From Alphaproteobacteria bacterium (GTDB taxonomy: Bacteria > Pseudomonadota > Alphaproteobacteria > Reyranellales > Reyranellaceae): a stretch of DNA of 46,859 bases. The position numbers and the translations under genes are program-made. The stretch is from positions 1 to 46,859 of the forward strand of contig RGPT01000005.1 of the NCBI GenBank assembly GCA_010032545.1. Direction: 5' to 3'. The notes under the pieces were generated by a model. The model was not told the origin of the DNA. It ran no database searches and worked only from the letters and a program-made list of their open reading frames with translations. Positions 20,555-28,370 of this stretch are shown here, in pieces. The stretch's first letter is position 1. The number at the start of each line of letters is the position of its first letter.

Positions 20555-21724
20555 ATGATGAAGCCGAACATGCGTCCGGCACGTCCCGACTTTTCGTCCG
20601 GACCGTGCGCCAAGCGTCCCGGGTGGACGCCAGAAGCCCTGAATGATGCGGCAATAGGCCGTTCCCACCGTTCAAAGATCGGCAAGTCGAAGATCGTAGA
20701 GGCGGTCGATCGCACGCGCGCGCTGCTCGGTGTTCCTGCCGACCATCGCATCGCCATCGTGCCCGCGTCGGATACCGGCGCCGTGGAAATGGCGCTGTGG
20801 TCGCTGCTCGGCGCGCGTCCCGTCGACATGCTGACCTGGGAAAGTTTCGGTGAAGGCTGGGTCACCGATGTGGTGAAGCAACTCAAGCTGAAGGACGCGC
20901 GCGTCCTGAAGGCGCCGTATGGCCAGATCGCCGACCTCAAAGCCGTTGATTGGCAGCACGATGTCGTCTTCACCTGGAACGGCACGACCTCGGGCGTGAA
21001 GGTGCCGAATGGCGACTGGATCGCGGCCGACCGGGAGGGATTGGCGATCTGCGATGCCACCTCGGCCGTCTTTGCCATGGAGCTGCCGTGGCAGAAGCTC
21101 GATGTCGTCACCTGGTCGTGGCAGAAGGTGATGGGCGGCGAGGGCGCGCACGGCATGCTCGTGCTGAGCCCCCGCGCGATCGCCCGCCTCGAGAGCTACA
21201 CGCCGGCCTGGCCGATGCCCAAGATCTTTCGCCTGACCTCGGGGGGGAAGTTCTCGGAAGCCATCTTCAAGGGCGACACGATCAACACACCATCGATGCT
21301 CTGCGTCGAGGACGCCATCGACGGTCTGCGCTGGGGCGAGAGCGTCGGCGGTCTGAAAGGCCTGATGGCCCGTTCCGAAGCCAATCTCGGCGTGCTCGAG
21401 AAGTTCGTGGCCAGCCGCGCGTGGGCGGCCTTCCTGGCGAACGACAAGGCCGTTCGCTCGAACACGTCAGTGTGCCTCGTCATCAAGGCGCCGTGGTTCA
21501 CCGCCCTGCCGGCCGACCAGCAGGCCCGGGCCGCCAAGAAGATGGCCGATCTGCTCGAGGCGGAGAAGGCCGGCTACGACCTGGGCTCCTACCGCGACGC
21601 CCCGCCGGGCTTGCGCATCTGGTGTGGCGCCACTGTCGAGAAGGCCGATCTCGAGGCACTGCTGCCGTGGCTTGACTGGGCCTACGGCGAGATCGAGCGC
21701 GAATTCGGCAAAGCGGCGGCCTGA
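20555..21724 (+). CDS. serC: Phosphoserine aminotransferase
   Basis: This 389-residue PLP enzyme converts 3-phosphohydroxypyruvate to phosphoserine. It opens with [18 protein letters not shown], the typical alphaproteobacterial SerC N-terminus. The PLP lysine is K191 in [31 protein letters not shown] and [15 protein letters not shown] are further family segments. The ATG at 20555 follows the SD held in the leader hairpin. serA begins 11 bases after its stop, so the two form one operon for serine synthesis. Confidence 0.95.
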
Positions 21725-21735
21725 GGAGACAGAAA

Positions 21736-23319
21736 ATGGCGAAACCCAAGGTGCTCATCTCCGATGAGCTGTCTCCCCGTGCTGTCGAGATTTTCGCGGA
21801 GCGCGGCTGCGACGTCGATTTCAAGCCCGGCCTGAAGCCCGCCGAGCTGCGTGCCATCGTCGGCAACTACGAGGGCCTGGCCATCCGGTCGGCGACCAAG
21901 GTCACGGCCGAGGTTCTGGCCGAGGCGAAGAAGCTCAGGGTCGTGGGGCGCGCTGGAATCGGCGTCGACAACGTCGACATCAAGGCCGCTACCGCGCATG
22001 GCGTTGTCGTCATGAACACGCCGTTCGGCAATGCCATCACCACCGCCGAGCATGCCATCGCCCTGATGTTTGCGGTGGCCCGGCAGGTGCCGGACGCCAA
22101 CACCAGCACCCAGGCCGGCAAGTGGGAGAAGAGCCGCTTCATGGGCACCGAGCTCAGCTTCAAGACGCTGGGTCTGATCGGTTGCGGCAACATCGGCGCG
22201 ATCGTGGCCGAACGGGCACTCGGCCTGAAAATGCGGGTGCTGGCCTACGATCCGTTCCTGAGCGACCAGCGCGCCGCCGAACTTGGCGTCGAGAAGGGCA
22301 CCCTCGACCAGGTGCTGGCGCGGGCCGATTTCATCACCATCCACACGCCGCTCACCGACCAGACCAGGAACATCCTGAGCCGCGCCAACCTGATGAAGAC
22401 CAAGAAGGGCGTGCGCGTCGTCAACTGCGCGCGCGGGGGCCTGGTCGACGAGCTGGCGGTGCGCGACCTGCTGGTTTCGGGCCACATCGCCGGCGCCGGG
22501 TTCGACGTCTTTGTCGAGGAACCGGCCAAGGACAACGTGCTGTTCGGCGCCCCCAACCTGGTCTGCACGCCGCATCTCGGCGCTTCCACGCTGGAGGCGC
22601 AGGAGAACGTGGCGCTGCAGGTGGCCGAGCAGATGGCCGACTACCTGCTGACCGGTGCGGTCACCAATTCGCTCAACATGCCCAACGTCTCGGCCGAGGA
22701 TGCGCCCAAGCTCGCGCCCTACCTCGATCTTGCCGAGAAGCTGGGCTCGTTCGCGGGCCAGCTCACCGACCGCGACATCAAGGCGGTGTCGATAGAGTAC
22801 GAGGGTGCCGTCGCCCAGCTCAACATCAAGCCGCTGACCCAGGTGGCGCTGATGGGCGTGCTGCGGCCGCAGCTCGATTCGGTGAATATGGTCAATGCAC
22901 CGGTGATCGCCCGCGAGCGCGGCATCGACGTGGCCGAAGTCAAGCACGAGCGCGACAGCGACTACACCGCACTGGTCAGGATTTCAGTAACCACGGACAA
23001 ATACACGCGCTCGGTATCGGGCACGCTGTTCGGCGGCTTGCGGCCGCGCATCGTCGAGATCAAGGGCATCGAGATCGAGGCCGAGTTCGCCCCGCACATG
23101 CTCTACATCACCAACGACGACAAGCCGGGCTTCATCGGCCGGCTGGGAACGCTGCTGGGTGAGAGCAAGGTCAACATCGCGACCTTCCATCTTGGCCGCG
23201 ACAAGCCCGGCGGTTCGGCCATTGCGCTGGTGCAGGTCGACCAGCCGATCTCGGCCGAGCTGATCGCCAGAATCGCCGCCGTCGAGGGCGTGGTGCAGGC
23301 GAAGGTTCTGGGATTCTGA
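21736..23319 (+). CDS. serA: D-3-phosphoglycerate dehydrogenase
   Basis: This 527-residue enzyme oxidises 3-phosphoglycerate with NAD in the first step of serine synthesis. The substrate domain (KPKVLISDELSPRAVEIF) is followed by the NAD domain with GLIGCGNIGAIVAERALG, the Asp of VLAYDPF, and VVNCARGGLVDE. The catalytic His is in CTPHLGASTLEAQ. An intervening ASB domain and a C-terminal ACT domain (MLYITNDDKPGFIGRLGTLL) follow. The long form with ACT may bind serine. The SD GAGGAGA lies just before the ATG. It shares an operon with serC. Confidence 0.96.
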   Translation: MAKPKVLISDELSPRAVEIFAERGCDVDFKPGLKPAELRAIVGNYEGLAIRSATKVTAEVLAEAKKLRVVGRAGIGVDNVDIKAATAHGVVVMNTPFGNAITTAEHAIALMFAVARQVPDANTSTQAGKWEKSRFMGTELSFKTLGLIGCGNIGAIVAERALGLKMRVLAYDPFLSDQRAAELGVEKGTLDQVLARADFITIHTPLTDQTRNILSRANLMKTKKGVRVVNCARGGLVDELAVRDLLVSGHIAGAGFDVFVEEPAKDNVLFGAPNLVCTPHLGASTLEAQENVALQVAEQMADYLLTGAVTNSLNMPNVSAEDAPKLAPYLDLAEKLGSFAGQLTDRDIKAVSIEYEGAVAQLNIKPLTQVALMGVLRPQLDSVNMVNAPVIARERGIDVAEVKHERDSDYTALVRISVTTDKYTRSVSGTLFGGLRPRIVEIKGIEIEAEFAPHMLYITNDDKPGFIGRLGTLLGESKVNIATFHLGRDKPGGSAIALVQVDQPISAELIARIAAVEGVVQAKVLGF

Positions 23320-26752: not shown

Positions 26753-26965
26753 CGAGAGTGCAATGTTAGTTCGGGGTCACGAAGAAAGCAACCCTTGCGA
26801 CGTCGGAGGCGTCTCCGGCCGCTGTCTTCGAGAGGCTGCGGGCGACGAGGCGGGCTGCGGACGATTACATCATCGCCATCACGCGCGCATGAGAAAAGGT
26901 TTGTCGTGGAAGGCGTGACAGGGGCGTAGCGTCCGACCCGTCGACAACGATCGGGAGTCTGTTTC

Positions 26966-27520
26966 ATGCCGCGCGTAACCGAGATCGAGGAGGATGGTGG
27001 CGATCCGACTTTGAAGGCGATCTTCGACAAGCAGCGCGAATTGTTCGGTGGCCTGCTGAATCCCACCAAGGTGCTGGCGCATTGTCCGCCGATCCTGCGG
27101 GCCGCCGGGCTGCTCGGCCAATCGATCGAGCAATCGGGCCTGCTGCCGAAGTCGCTGCCGCCGCTGCTCTATCTGCGCGTGGCCGCGATCAACGGATGTC
27201 CCTTTTGAATGGACATCAATTCCAGCCGTGTGCTGGAAACGACCGAAGGCGGAATGGAGAAGCTGGCTGAAGTAGCGAGCTGGCGCACGAGTTCGTTGTT
27301 CAGCGCGATGGAGCGCGTCGCGCTCGAGTATGCCGAGCGCATCACCTACACCGACCAGAAGGTGGACGACGCTTTCTTCGCCGAGGTGAAGAAGCACTTT
27401 TCGGACGCTCAGATCGTCGAACTGACGGCGGCGATCGCGCTCGAGAATTTTCGCTCGAAATTCAACCCTACCCTGGGCGTCGAGGCCCAGGGATTCTGCA
27501 TGGTGCCGCCGAGGAAGTGA
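26966..27520 (+). CDS. Putative selenoprotein: carboxymuconolactone decarboxylase/AhpD-like with CxxU (UGA at 27206)
   Basis: From ATG 26966 the frame runs 80 codons to C78-P-F then UGA, and continues in the same frame for 103 more codons. Reading UGA as selenocysteine gives 184 residues, a normal length. Both sides match the CMD/AhpD-like family: LYLRVAAINGC before, MDINSSRVLE, then WRTSSLFSAMERVALEYAER and ELTAAIALENFRSKFN after. Family members have CxxC here, so Sec would replace the resolving Cys of a redox pair used in peroxide or thiol chemistry. A hairpin at 27220-27238 fits a bSECIS. Alternatives are a Cys-to-stop nonsense mutation or reinitiation at ATG 27209. The AhpD proton-relay Glu and His are not evident. 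Confidence 0.7.
27206..27238 (+). promoter_or_regulatory. UGA codon with candidate bacterial SECIS hairpin
   Basis: Eleven bases after UGA, TTCCAGC (27220-27226) pairs perfectly with GCTGGAA (27232-27238) across loop CGTGT. Counting the U of UGA as 1, loop bases 23 and 24 are G and U, the two loop bases SelB needs at these positions in E. coli fdhF. Position 17 is C, and no bulged U is seen; U occupies 15 and 16 instead. Confidence 0.6.
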
Positions 27521-27531
27521 CGGCCAGGGAA

Positions 27532-27552
27532 GTGACGGCCGGGGGCCGTCAC
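27532..27552. terminator. Hairpin between convergent genes
   Basis: GTGACGGCC-GGG-GGCCGTCAC is a perfect 9-bp stem. It lies between the putative selenoprotein stop (27520) and the tctC stop codon (27549-27551), which is inside the 3' arm. AAGTGACGGCC occurs twice in tandem here (27515 on and 27530 on). There is no T-run, so the terminator call is by position. Confidence 0.5.
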
Positions 27553-28354
27553 TCCATATCGACCTTCAGTTCCTTGAGCTTCTTGCCCCAGAAGGCGTGC
27601 TCGTCGGCGACGAGCTTGGTGAAGTCCGCGCGGGTGCGGTCGGGCGGCATTTCGAGCCCGTCCCGGGCCAGCGCCTCTTCCCACTTCGGATTCTTCATCG
27701 CCTCCTGGGTGACCTTGGCGATCTTGTCGAGTATGGCCGGCGGTGTCTTGGCGGGGGCGAACAGGCCCTGCCAGCTGGTCACGACGACGTCGATGCCCTG
27801 CTCTTTCAGCGTCGGCACGTCGGGCAGGGACGCGCGAACAGCGCGCCGGCGAGGTGATTGTTGCCGCCCACGCCCGACGACGAGAAGGTGAGCGTGTCGG
27901 GATCCTTCTTGGCCAGCGCCACCAGCTCGGCCGCGTTCTTGACCGGCACCTTGTTGCCCACGACCAGCACGTACTGGTAGTCCGTCACCTGGCAGATCGG
28001 CGCGAGGGTTGCGAGGGTGTCGATCATGCCCTTCTGGACGTGCGGGTTGATGATCACGTTGGTGCCGACCGCAACGAACAGCGTCTGGCCGTCCGGCTTG
28101 GCATTCGCGACGGCGCGCAGGCCGATCGAGCCGGCCGCGCCGCCCTTGTTGTCGATGACGATCTGCTGGCCGATGATCGGCGTCATGACGTGTGCGAGTT
28201 CGCGGGCAATGATGTCCGTGCTGCCGCCCGCGGCGTAGCCGACGACGAAGGTGACCGGGCCGGCCGGCCACGCGGCCTGGGCGCGCAAGCCGGAGGGCAG
28301 GAGGAGGGCGCCCGTTCCAAGGGCAAGCGCGTGTCGGCGGTTGAGGGCGTTCAT
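27549..28354 (-). pseudogene. TctC/Bug-family binding protein with internal deletion
   Basis: From ATG 28354 (SD GGAGGAAA) the protein has a leader (HALALGTGALLLPSGLRAQA) and family motifs PVTFVVGYAAGGSTDIIARE, GQQIVIDNKGGAAGSIGLRA and SSSGVGGNNHLAGALF. Near 27834 the frame changes directly into LPDVPTLKEQGIDVVVTSWQ and a normal C-terminus. Bug proteins are about 320 residues; here roughly 270 codons remain, so some 50-70 residues of the second lobe are missing. It sits 16 bases upstream of... on the same strand as tcuA, which precedes it? The order on the minus strand is tcuA's neighbour: this gene starts before 28371 ends, i.e. it follows tcuA by 16 bases. The intact form would import tricarboxylates. 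Confidence 0.8.
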
Positions 28355-28370
28355 GTTTTCCTCCCGTGTC

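Follow-up and report, generated by a model that had tools for sequence, protein, structure and literature searches.

The window, by which we mean the whole stretch of 46,859 nucleotides of DNA that was analysed, carries a gene with an in-frame UGA that is almost certainly, from its sequence, a selenocysteine (Sec) codon within a 184-residue protein of the CMD/AhpD-like family (Table 1). On the sequence evidence this is a genuine selenoprotein gene, and what makes it distinctive is that its orthologues appear to be Sec-only across two phyla and that it is kept in two single-contig genomes in which no Sec formate dehydrogenase exceeds the model's cut-off. The best overall explanation, and in our judgement a highly probable one, is that the product is a Sec-containing CMD/AhpD-like enzyme of the CxxU type, which would perform selenol/thiol redox chemistry, probably with Sec81 as the attacking residue.

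The gene represents a known kind of selenoprotein, since AhpD-like and CMD-like proteins with a CxxU motif had been described by 2005 among Sargasso Sea sequences (PMC1088965). AhpD-like selenoproteins have also been described from GOS (PMC2398784) and in sequenced bacteria (PMC1794560), and both types feature in reviews (PMC9312934; PMC13188914), the second of which, from 2026, notes 63 predicted selenoprotein genes in one Methylomirabilota MAG; here and below, what we take from cited papers is limited to the accessible parts of those papers. An earlier note, made from the DNA letters, had likewise pointed to AhpD-like selenoproteins reported from metagenomes. CxxU selenoproteins of the AhpD and CMD types are already known, but the conserved branch to which the window gene belongs is not described in the searchable literature: a search of the open literature on selenoproteins with Reyranella, Rokubacteria, YciW and Methylomirabilota gave no title or abstract describing it.

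Table 1. Position and supporting evidence of the features discussed (positions are those of the window unless loci are named)
Feature	Position	Strand	Description and evidence
Shine-Dalgarno-like GGGAG	26953..26957	+	8 nt 5' of the ATG; direct sequence reading
Putative selenoprotein gene, CMD/AhpD-like	26966..27520 including stop	+	184 residues, Cys78-Pro-Phe-Sec81; translation, Pfam CMD match, orthologues, constraint on both sides of the TGA
Predicted Sec codon UGA, residue 81	27206..27208	+	TGA in 85/85 copies, 58 distinct gene sequences
bSECIS-like hairpin	27220..27238	+	stem 27220-27226 with 27232-27238, loop 27227-27231 (CGTGT); covariation, fit to the model of PMC13188914
Sel1-repeat homologue on a sel stretch	loci L108-L113, L126, L166, L167, L168

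Reading frame and conservation of the UGA codon

Translation of positions 26966-27517 gives the 184 residues with a single internal TGA, at codon 81, in the context I-N-G-C-P-F-U-M-D-I-N, and the frame ends at a stop at 27518-27520. The earlier note had placed the UGA at the second Cys of the family CxxC, with family sequence on either side in one frame. Both points stand: codon 81 closes the motif as C-P-F-U, and in a profile search of the read-through protein the PF02627 (CMD) match (28.6 bits against a gathering score of 23) extends over residues 52-124 and so spans the TGA, while pN/pS in ten pairs is low on both sides (0.08-0.31 upstream of the TGA and 0.20-0.58 downstream). In an alignment of the window with 23 of the 55 loci described below (L095 and L103 were excluded) no variation occurs at Cys40, Cys78, residue 81 or Cys178 among the 24 sequences. 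Translation table 11 breaks the gene into two ORFs, of 80 and 103 residues, and the read-through protein scores below the cut-off of every NCBIfam model, so that ordinary annotation would probably split the gene or miss it.

At codon level, TGA occupies the Sec position in all 85 copies that were read, which come from two overlapping sets and represent the 58 distinct gene sequences. A protein search covering 101 genomes, 61 of them from the genus, found a full-length orthologue with an in-frame TGA in 56 of those 61, the window's own genome counted. The remaining five comprise G043, whose gene has a deletion 3' of the TGA, G026, in which just a C-terminal part was matched where a contig begins, and G007, G017 and G040 (stated completeness 73, 77 and 60%), in which this search found no orthologue. 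A second stop was listed in four genomes, and this is the terminal stop in G004 and G054 and a TAG at the end of a match running one codon further in G057, G027 being the fourth. A search of genome contigs gave the 55 loci, 54 of them close, at 66-87% identity; their record titles are mostly Reyranella, Rhodospirillales and Alphaproteobacteria with a few Burkholderiales, Hyphomicrobiales and Candidatus Rokuibacteriota, although the titles of MAGs may be wrong. Cultured Reyranella are among the carriers, to judge by titles: R. massiliensis (L075), R. soli (L090) and R. aquatilis (L071).

When CMD homologues were aligned at the UGA codon, Cys codons were found in homologues that are approximately 33-42% identical, and no Cys orthologue falls in the 25-row branch of the tree that holds the window (see below). 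This rules out that the strain alone has TGA where its close relatives have Cys. A sequencing or assembly error at 27206 might be entertained for a window drawn from an assembly of 567 contigs. However, the identical TGA occurs in other assemblies, including the single-contig G016, G021 and G058, and the hairpin 3' of it is nearly confined to TGA-bearing genes; with TGA in every copy we consider such an error ruled out, its probability being vanishingly small. It could also be argued that the UGA is a real stop and the downstream half either an independent ORF beginning at 27209 or a remnant in decay, as in the window an ATG directly follows the TGA and would open the second of the two ORFs. 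Yet the codon directly 3' of the TGA is ATG in just 18 of 57 copies and ATT, ATC, ATA, GTC or ACC in the others, so there is no conserved restart and one at 27209 is ruled out. Moreover, the downstream half is under constraint and the CMD domain is continuous over the TGA, and we regard a real stop as very improbable.

A bSECIS-like hairpin downstream of the UGA

Eleven bases 3' of the TGA begins a perfect hairpin of 7 bp, the loop of which has G at position 23 and U at position 24 when the U of UGA is counted as 1; direct reading of the sequence agrees with the earlier note in each of these respects. This placing of G and U is presumably comparable to that in the bSECIS of E. coli fdhF. The published bSECIS model asks for a loop of 3-9 nt, a stem of 4-16 bp, a G as the first or second loop base, a spacing of 16-37 nt between the UGA and the loop and an energy of -7.5 kcal/mol or lower (PMC13188914). 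With a 5-nt loop, its 7 bp, a G at loop position 2, a distance of 18 nt and an energy of -10.4 kcal/mol, the hairpin falls within all of these limits.

Folding energy is weak as proof of the hairpin, as the value for the 42 nt from the UGA is only modestly unusual (z -1.65; 13 of 200 shuffles as good) and the mean for the window's branch (-10.65) is not separated from that of the Cys rows (-10.4). Unlike mean energy, stem length and covariation do separate the two. In the window's branch, counting L102 and also L097 with its deletion, 54 of 57 copies have a stem of at least 6 bp. Such a stem occurs in 31 of 32 other Sec copies, against 1 of 26 Cys homologues. Covariation was assessed in 54 aligned copies (46 distinct), namely the window and 53 of the 55 loci, with L097 excluded for its deleted hairpin region and L105 as a distant hit. 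Both sides have changed in five of the seven pairs. The proportion of paired cells is 96.6% compared to 83.2% in shuffles and the covariation score 0.395 compared to 0.136, a score that none of 500 shuffles reaches, although the shuffles ignore kinship. Four of the five measures are reached by none of the 500 shuffles and the fifth, the number of further pair types, by one. Versions of the stem slid along the alignment have 29-54% of cells paired, although this control favours the structure, which was seen first in the window. RNAalifold recovers the same stem unaided.

The deletion in the G043 orthologue (L097/L118, contig C403) comprises 17 residues after the TGA and takes away the hairpin region with the rest remaining in frame, which may reflect decay, an assembly fault or another hairpin.

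Chance is excluded because TGA is found in all 85 copies, pN/pS is low and the stem covaries. The earlier proposal of a candidate CMD/AhpD-like selenoprotein is supported by the conserved TGA, the covarying and Sec-specific hairpin, the constraint downstream and the tRNA-Sec, selB and selD genes described next. We are therefore highly confident, from sequence, in a selenoprotein gene whose UGA would be read as Sec by SelB and Sec-tRNA(Sec) under the direction of the hairpin.

Selenocysteine machinery in the genome and genus

The window was noted earlier to hold no sel genes, and a search of its own genome (4.59 Mb in 567 contigs, completeness given as 100, contamination 3.84) placed those that it found on other contigs. 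This search for selA, selB, selC and selD was successful for selC, as a tRNA-Sec with the anticodon tca, for selB (446.7 bits) and for selD (172.3 bits, cut at a contig end), but selA was not found in the contigs of the genome. To judge by its relatives, the selA of this genome most likely sits beyond a contig end, because its selB contig ends within a Sel1-repeat ORF upstream of selB and close homologues of this ORF occur on the sel stretches of ten other genus genomes (Table 1), in nine of them on the selA stretch. Coordinates in G021 and G017 give the order selA, Sel1-repeat, selB, and no such homologue was found on the sel stretches of six other genomes (L106/L124, L107, L114, L115, L125 and L160). 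Sel1-like proteins are mentioned in alphaproteobacterial sel clusters (PMC8124441).

Within the genus, selA is over cut-off in 59 of 65 genomes and has some match in 61, that of G050 being weak only. A test for selB in 15 genomes gave 11 over cut-off. Counting against the selenoprotein reading, two drafts of the genus, G018 and G046, carry the Sec gene with neither selA nor selB over cut-off, G046 having a C-terminal piece of selB, and in the L099 genome selB likewise stays below cut-off; each of these three assemblies is a draft or has no stated quality. In 9 of 11 genus genomes, the window's own included, a formate dehydrogenase alpha subunit with one TGA exceeds the TIGR01553 cut-off, and its context was read as U-H-G-P in L219. 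As a separate observation, an integrase-domain ORF (L009, 94-879, minus strand, on contig C244 of the same genome) adjoins the tRNA-Sec gene and may belong to a mobile element at selC.

Relationship to other CMD proteins

The best NCBIfam match of the read-through protein is to NF053654, a YciW-related (seleno)protein, over residues 1-176, with 129.6 bits against a cut-off of 310. The peroxidase-related TIGR01926 scores 38.9 bits against a curated cut-off of 81.8 and the AhpD core domain TIGR00778 scores 18.7 against 27.8. While the window protein has in common with AhpD-like (COG2128/TIGR01926) and CMD-like (PF02627) CxxU selenoproteins the CMD domain, the CxxU motif and a hairpin after the UGA (PMC1088965; PMC2398784; PMC13188914), it differs from the AhpD-like ones in falling below the TIGR01926 cut-off, the comparison with published members being by description only.

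In the phylum of L102, a locus titled Candidatus Rokuibacteriota, NF053654 has a match in 55 of 95 genomes, three of them over cut-off, and among the matches listed all but four contain one TGA. All 30 loci read in this phylum are C-x-F-U; 17 of them group with the window and the other 13 with NF053654. Many genomes of the phylum have several CMD genes with one in-frame TGA each (L186-L215 and others), an apparent expansion of a Sec-CMD family. Two genomes of the Reyranella genus also have a second CMD gene with a TGA, which is similar to NF053654 (L122, 1037-1546; L123, 977-1501).

Phylogenetic analysis covered 93 rows (58 Sec and 35 Cys) with a midpoint root, after exclusion of six of 99 rows that were shorter than 140 residues. 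The window lies in a 25-row Sec branch (98/95), inside a 44-row group with the Rokubacteria-type Sec rows. The NF053654-like Sec rows share the C-x-F-U placement with the window gene but stand apart from its group (100/99). As drawn, the tree requires three Sec/Cys changes, one of which is demanded by the well-supported branches by themselves. A single Cys row, L155, falls within the 44-row group; its branch length is 3.01 and it was flagged as unsure. Cys homologues were found in three genomes of the genus as well as in the class and the phylum. Their motif surroundings are those of the Sec gene (C-x-F-C-x-D, in most cases with Asn at the fourth residue past the second Cys and a terminal QGFC or QGLC), but they differ from it in their Cys codon and in the near absence of the hairpin.

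Fold, active site and proposed mechanism

A structure model, calculated from the 24 sequences with Cys in place of Sec, has a mean pLDDT of 78.6, with residues 1-5 and 168-184 below 50, and predicts a mostly helical CMD/AhpD-like protein with the Cys78-x-x-Sec81 pair at the start of a helix. Foldseek matched the model to PA0269-type AhpD-like proteins, the debrominase Bmp8 and other CMD proteins. A helical core with the CxxC/CxxU pair, here CPFU, is shared with M. tuberculosis AhpD and P. aeruginosa PA0269 (TM 0.91 by target length for the PA0269-type 7xw1). However, AhpD-like proteins have a proton relay of Glu, Cys, Cys and His (PMC3141380), and all 24 aligned sequences have Asn at the His position, the fourth residue past the second Cys, whilst one of the 24 has Glu at the Glu position, 12 residues ahead of the first Cys. 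That the relay His and Glu are not kept speaks against a peroxidase of the plain AhpD type. The loss of the His is not due to Sec, since the Cys homologues carry the same Asn. A selenol is ionised at neutral pH, and because of this the relay is perhaps dispensable in a Sec enzyme.

Sec81 takes the position of Cys133 of M. tuberculosis AhpD, which, rather than the partly buried Cys130, bonds to Cys61 of AhpC (PMC6626918). By analogy, Sec81 would be exposed and act as the nucleophile towards an oxidised substrate, with Cys78 resolving the intermediate as a selenenyl-sulfide that a cellular thiol system would then reduce; we think this assignment probable. The earlier note had taken Sec to be the resolving residue, so the roles are probably reversed. 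Attack by Cys78 with resolution by Sec81, as that note proposed, would fit B. thailandensis AhpD, where the first Cys is more important than the second, but not M. tuberculosis AhpD, where the exposed residue that bonds to AhpC is the second (PMC6626918), and it appears unlikely.

Genomic neighbourhood was considered as a guide to function and dropped, as in the window the immediate neighbours of the Sec gene lie on the opposite strand and, outside the genus, ten neighbour proteins from seven loci are of unrelated families, one having no family. At the 54 close loci, many of which are short, matches to window genes include a Bug-type gene at 43, a TcuA-like gene at 39 and a PGDH gene at 34. 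The Bug-type gene of the window (27549-28355, minus strand), which codes for a substrate-binding protein and lies just past the Sec gene, is frameshifted and lacks approximately 172 nt relative to seven of seven relatives compared, and is either a pseudogene or an assembly fault. Elsewhere in the window, a serC leader RNA (RF00517, 20502-20554, plus strand, 45.6 bits) precedes an ORF at 20555 and a PGDH-type serA gene at 21736.

With Sec81 as the preferred nucleophile, a hydroperoxide is our tentative candidate for the substrate. Another possibility is that the Sec is genuine and the enzyme is not a peroxidase, reducing instead another substrate, for instance an organohalide or the disulfide of a protein or small molecule, with Cys40 or Cys178 perhaps serving as further redox residues. 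In line with this, the proton relay is not conserved, both of these Cys residues are invariant, and Bmp8 (6ohi, 6ohj), which also has a CxxC pair, is the second-ranked Foldseek row, matching in fold over approximately 170 columns and in sequence over nearly the full length. However, Bmp8 is just 22% identical in the structural comparison, has Cys rather than Sec and other residues after the motif, and scores lower in sequence than the PA0269-type AhpD-like proteins. Furthermore, the model is poor at 168-184 and does not give the place of Cys178, and no neighbour gene points to a disulfide or organohalide substrate, and we consider this possibility somewhat doubtful. The absent relay and the invariant Cys40 and Cys178 could be taken further, to a Sec-obligate CMD subfamily of Pseudomonadota and the Rokubacteria-type phylum with chemistry other than AhpD peroxide reduction, in which Sec would be the nucleophile of another two-electron reduction, such as a deiodinase-like reductive dehalogenation or a dedicated disulfide reduction, but we judge this improbable.

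Implications

The single-contig genomes G016 and G058 contain selA, selB and the Sec-CMD gene, with a tRNA-Sec seen in G016, and no TIGR01553-type formate dehydrogenase over cut-off. In these two genomes the Sec-CMD gene may be one reason to keep selenocysteine. The Cys homologues with the same active-site surroundings, some of them within the genus, would provide a natural test of what Sec adds.
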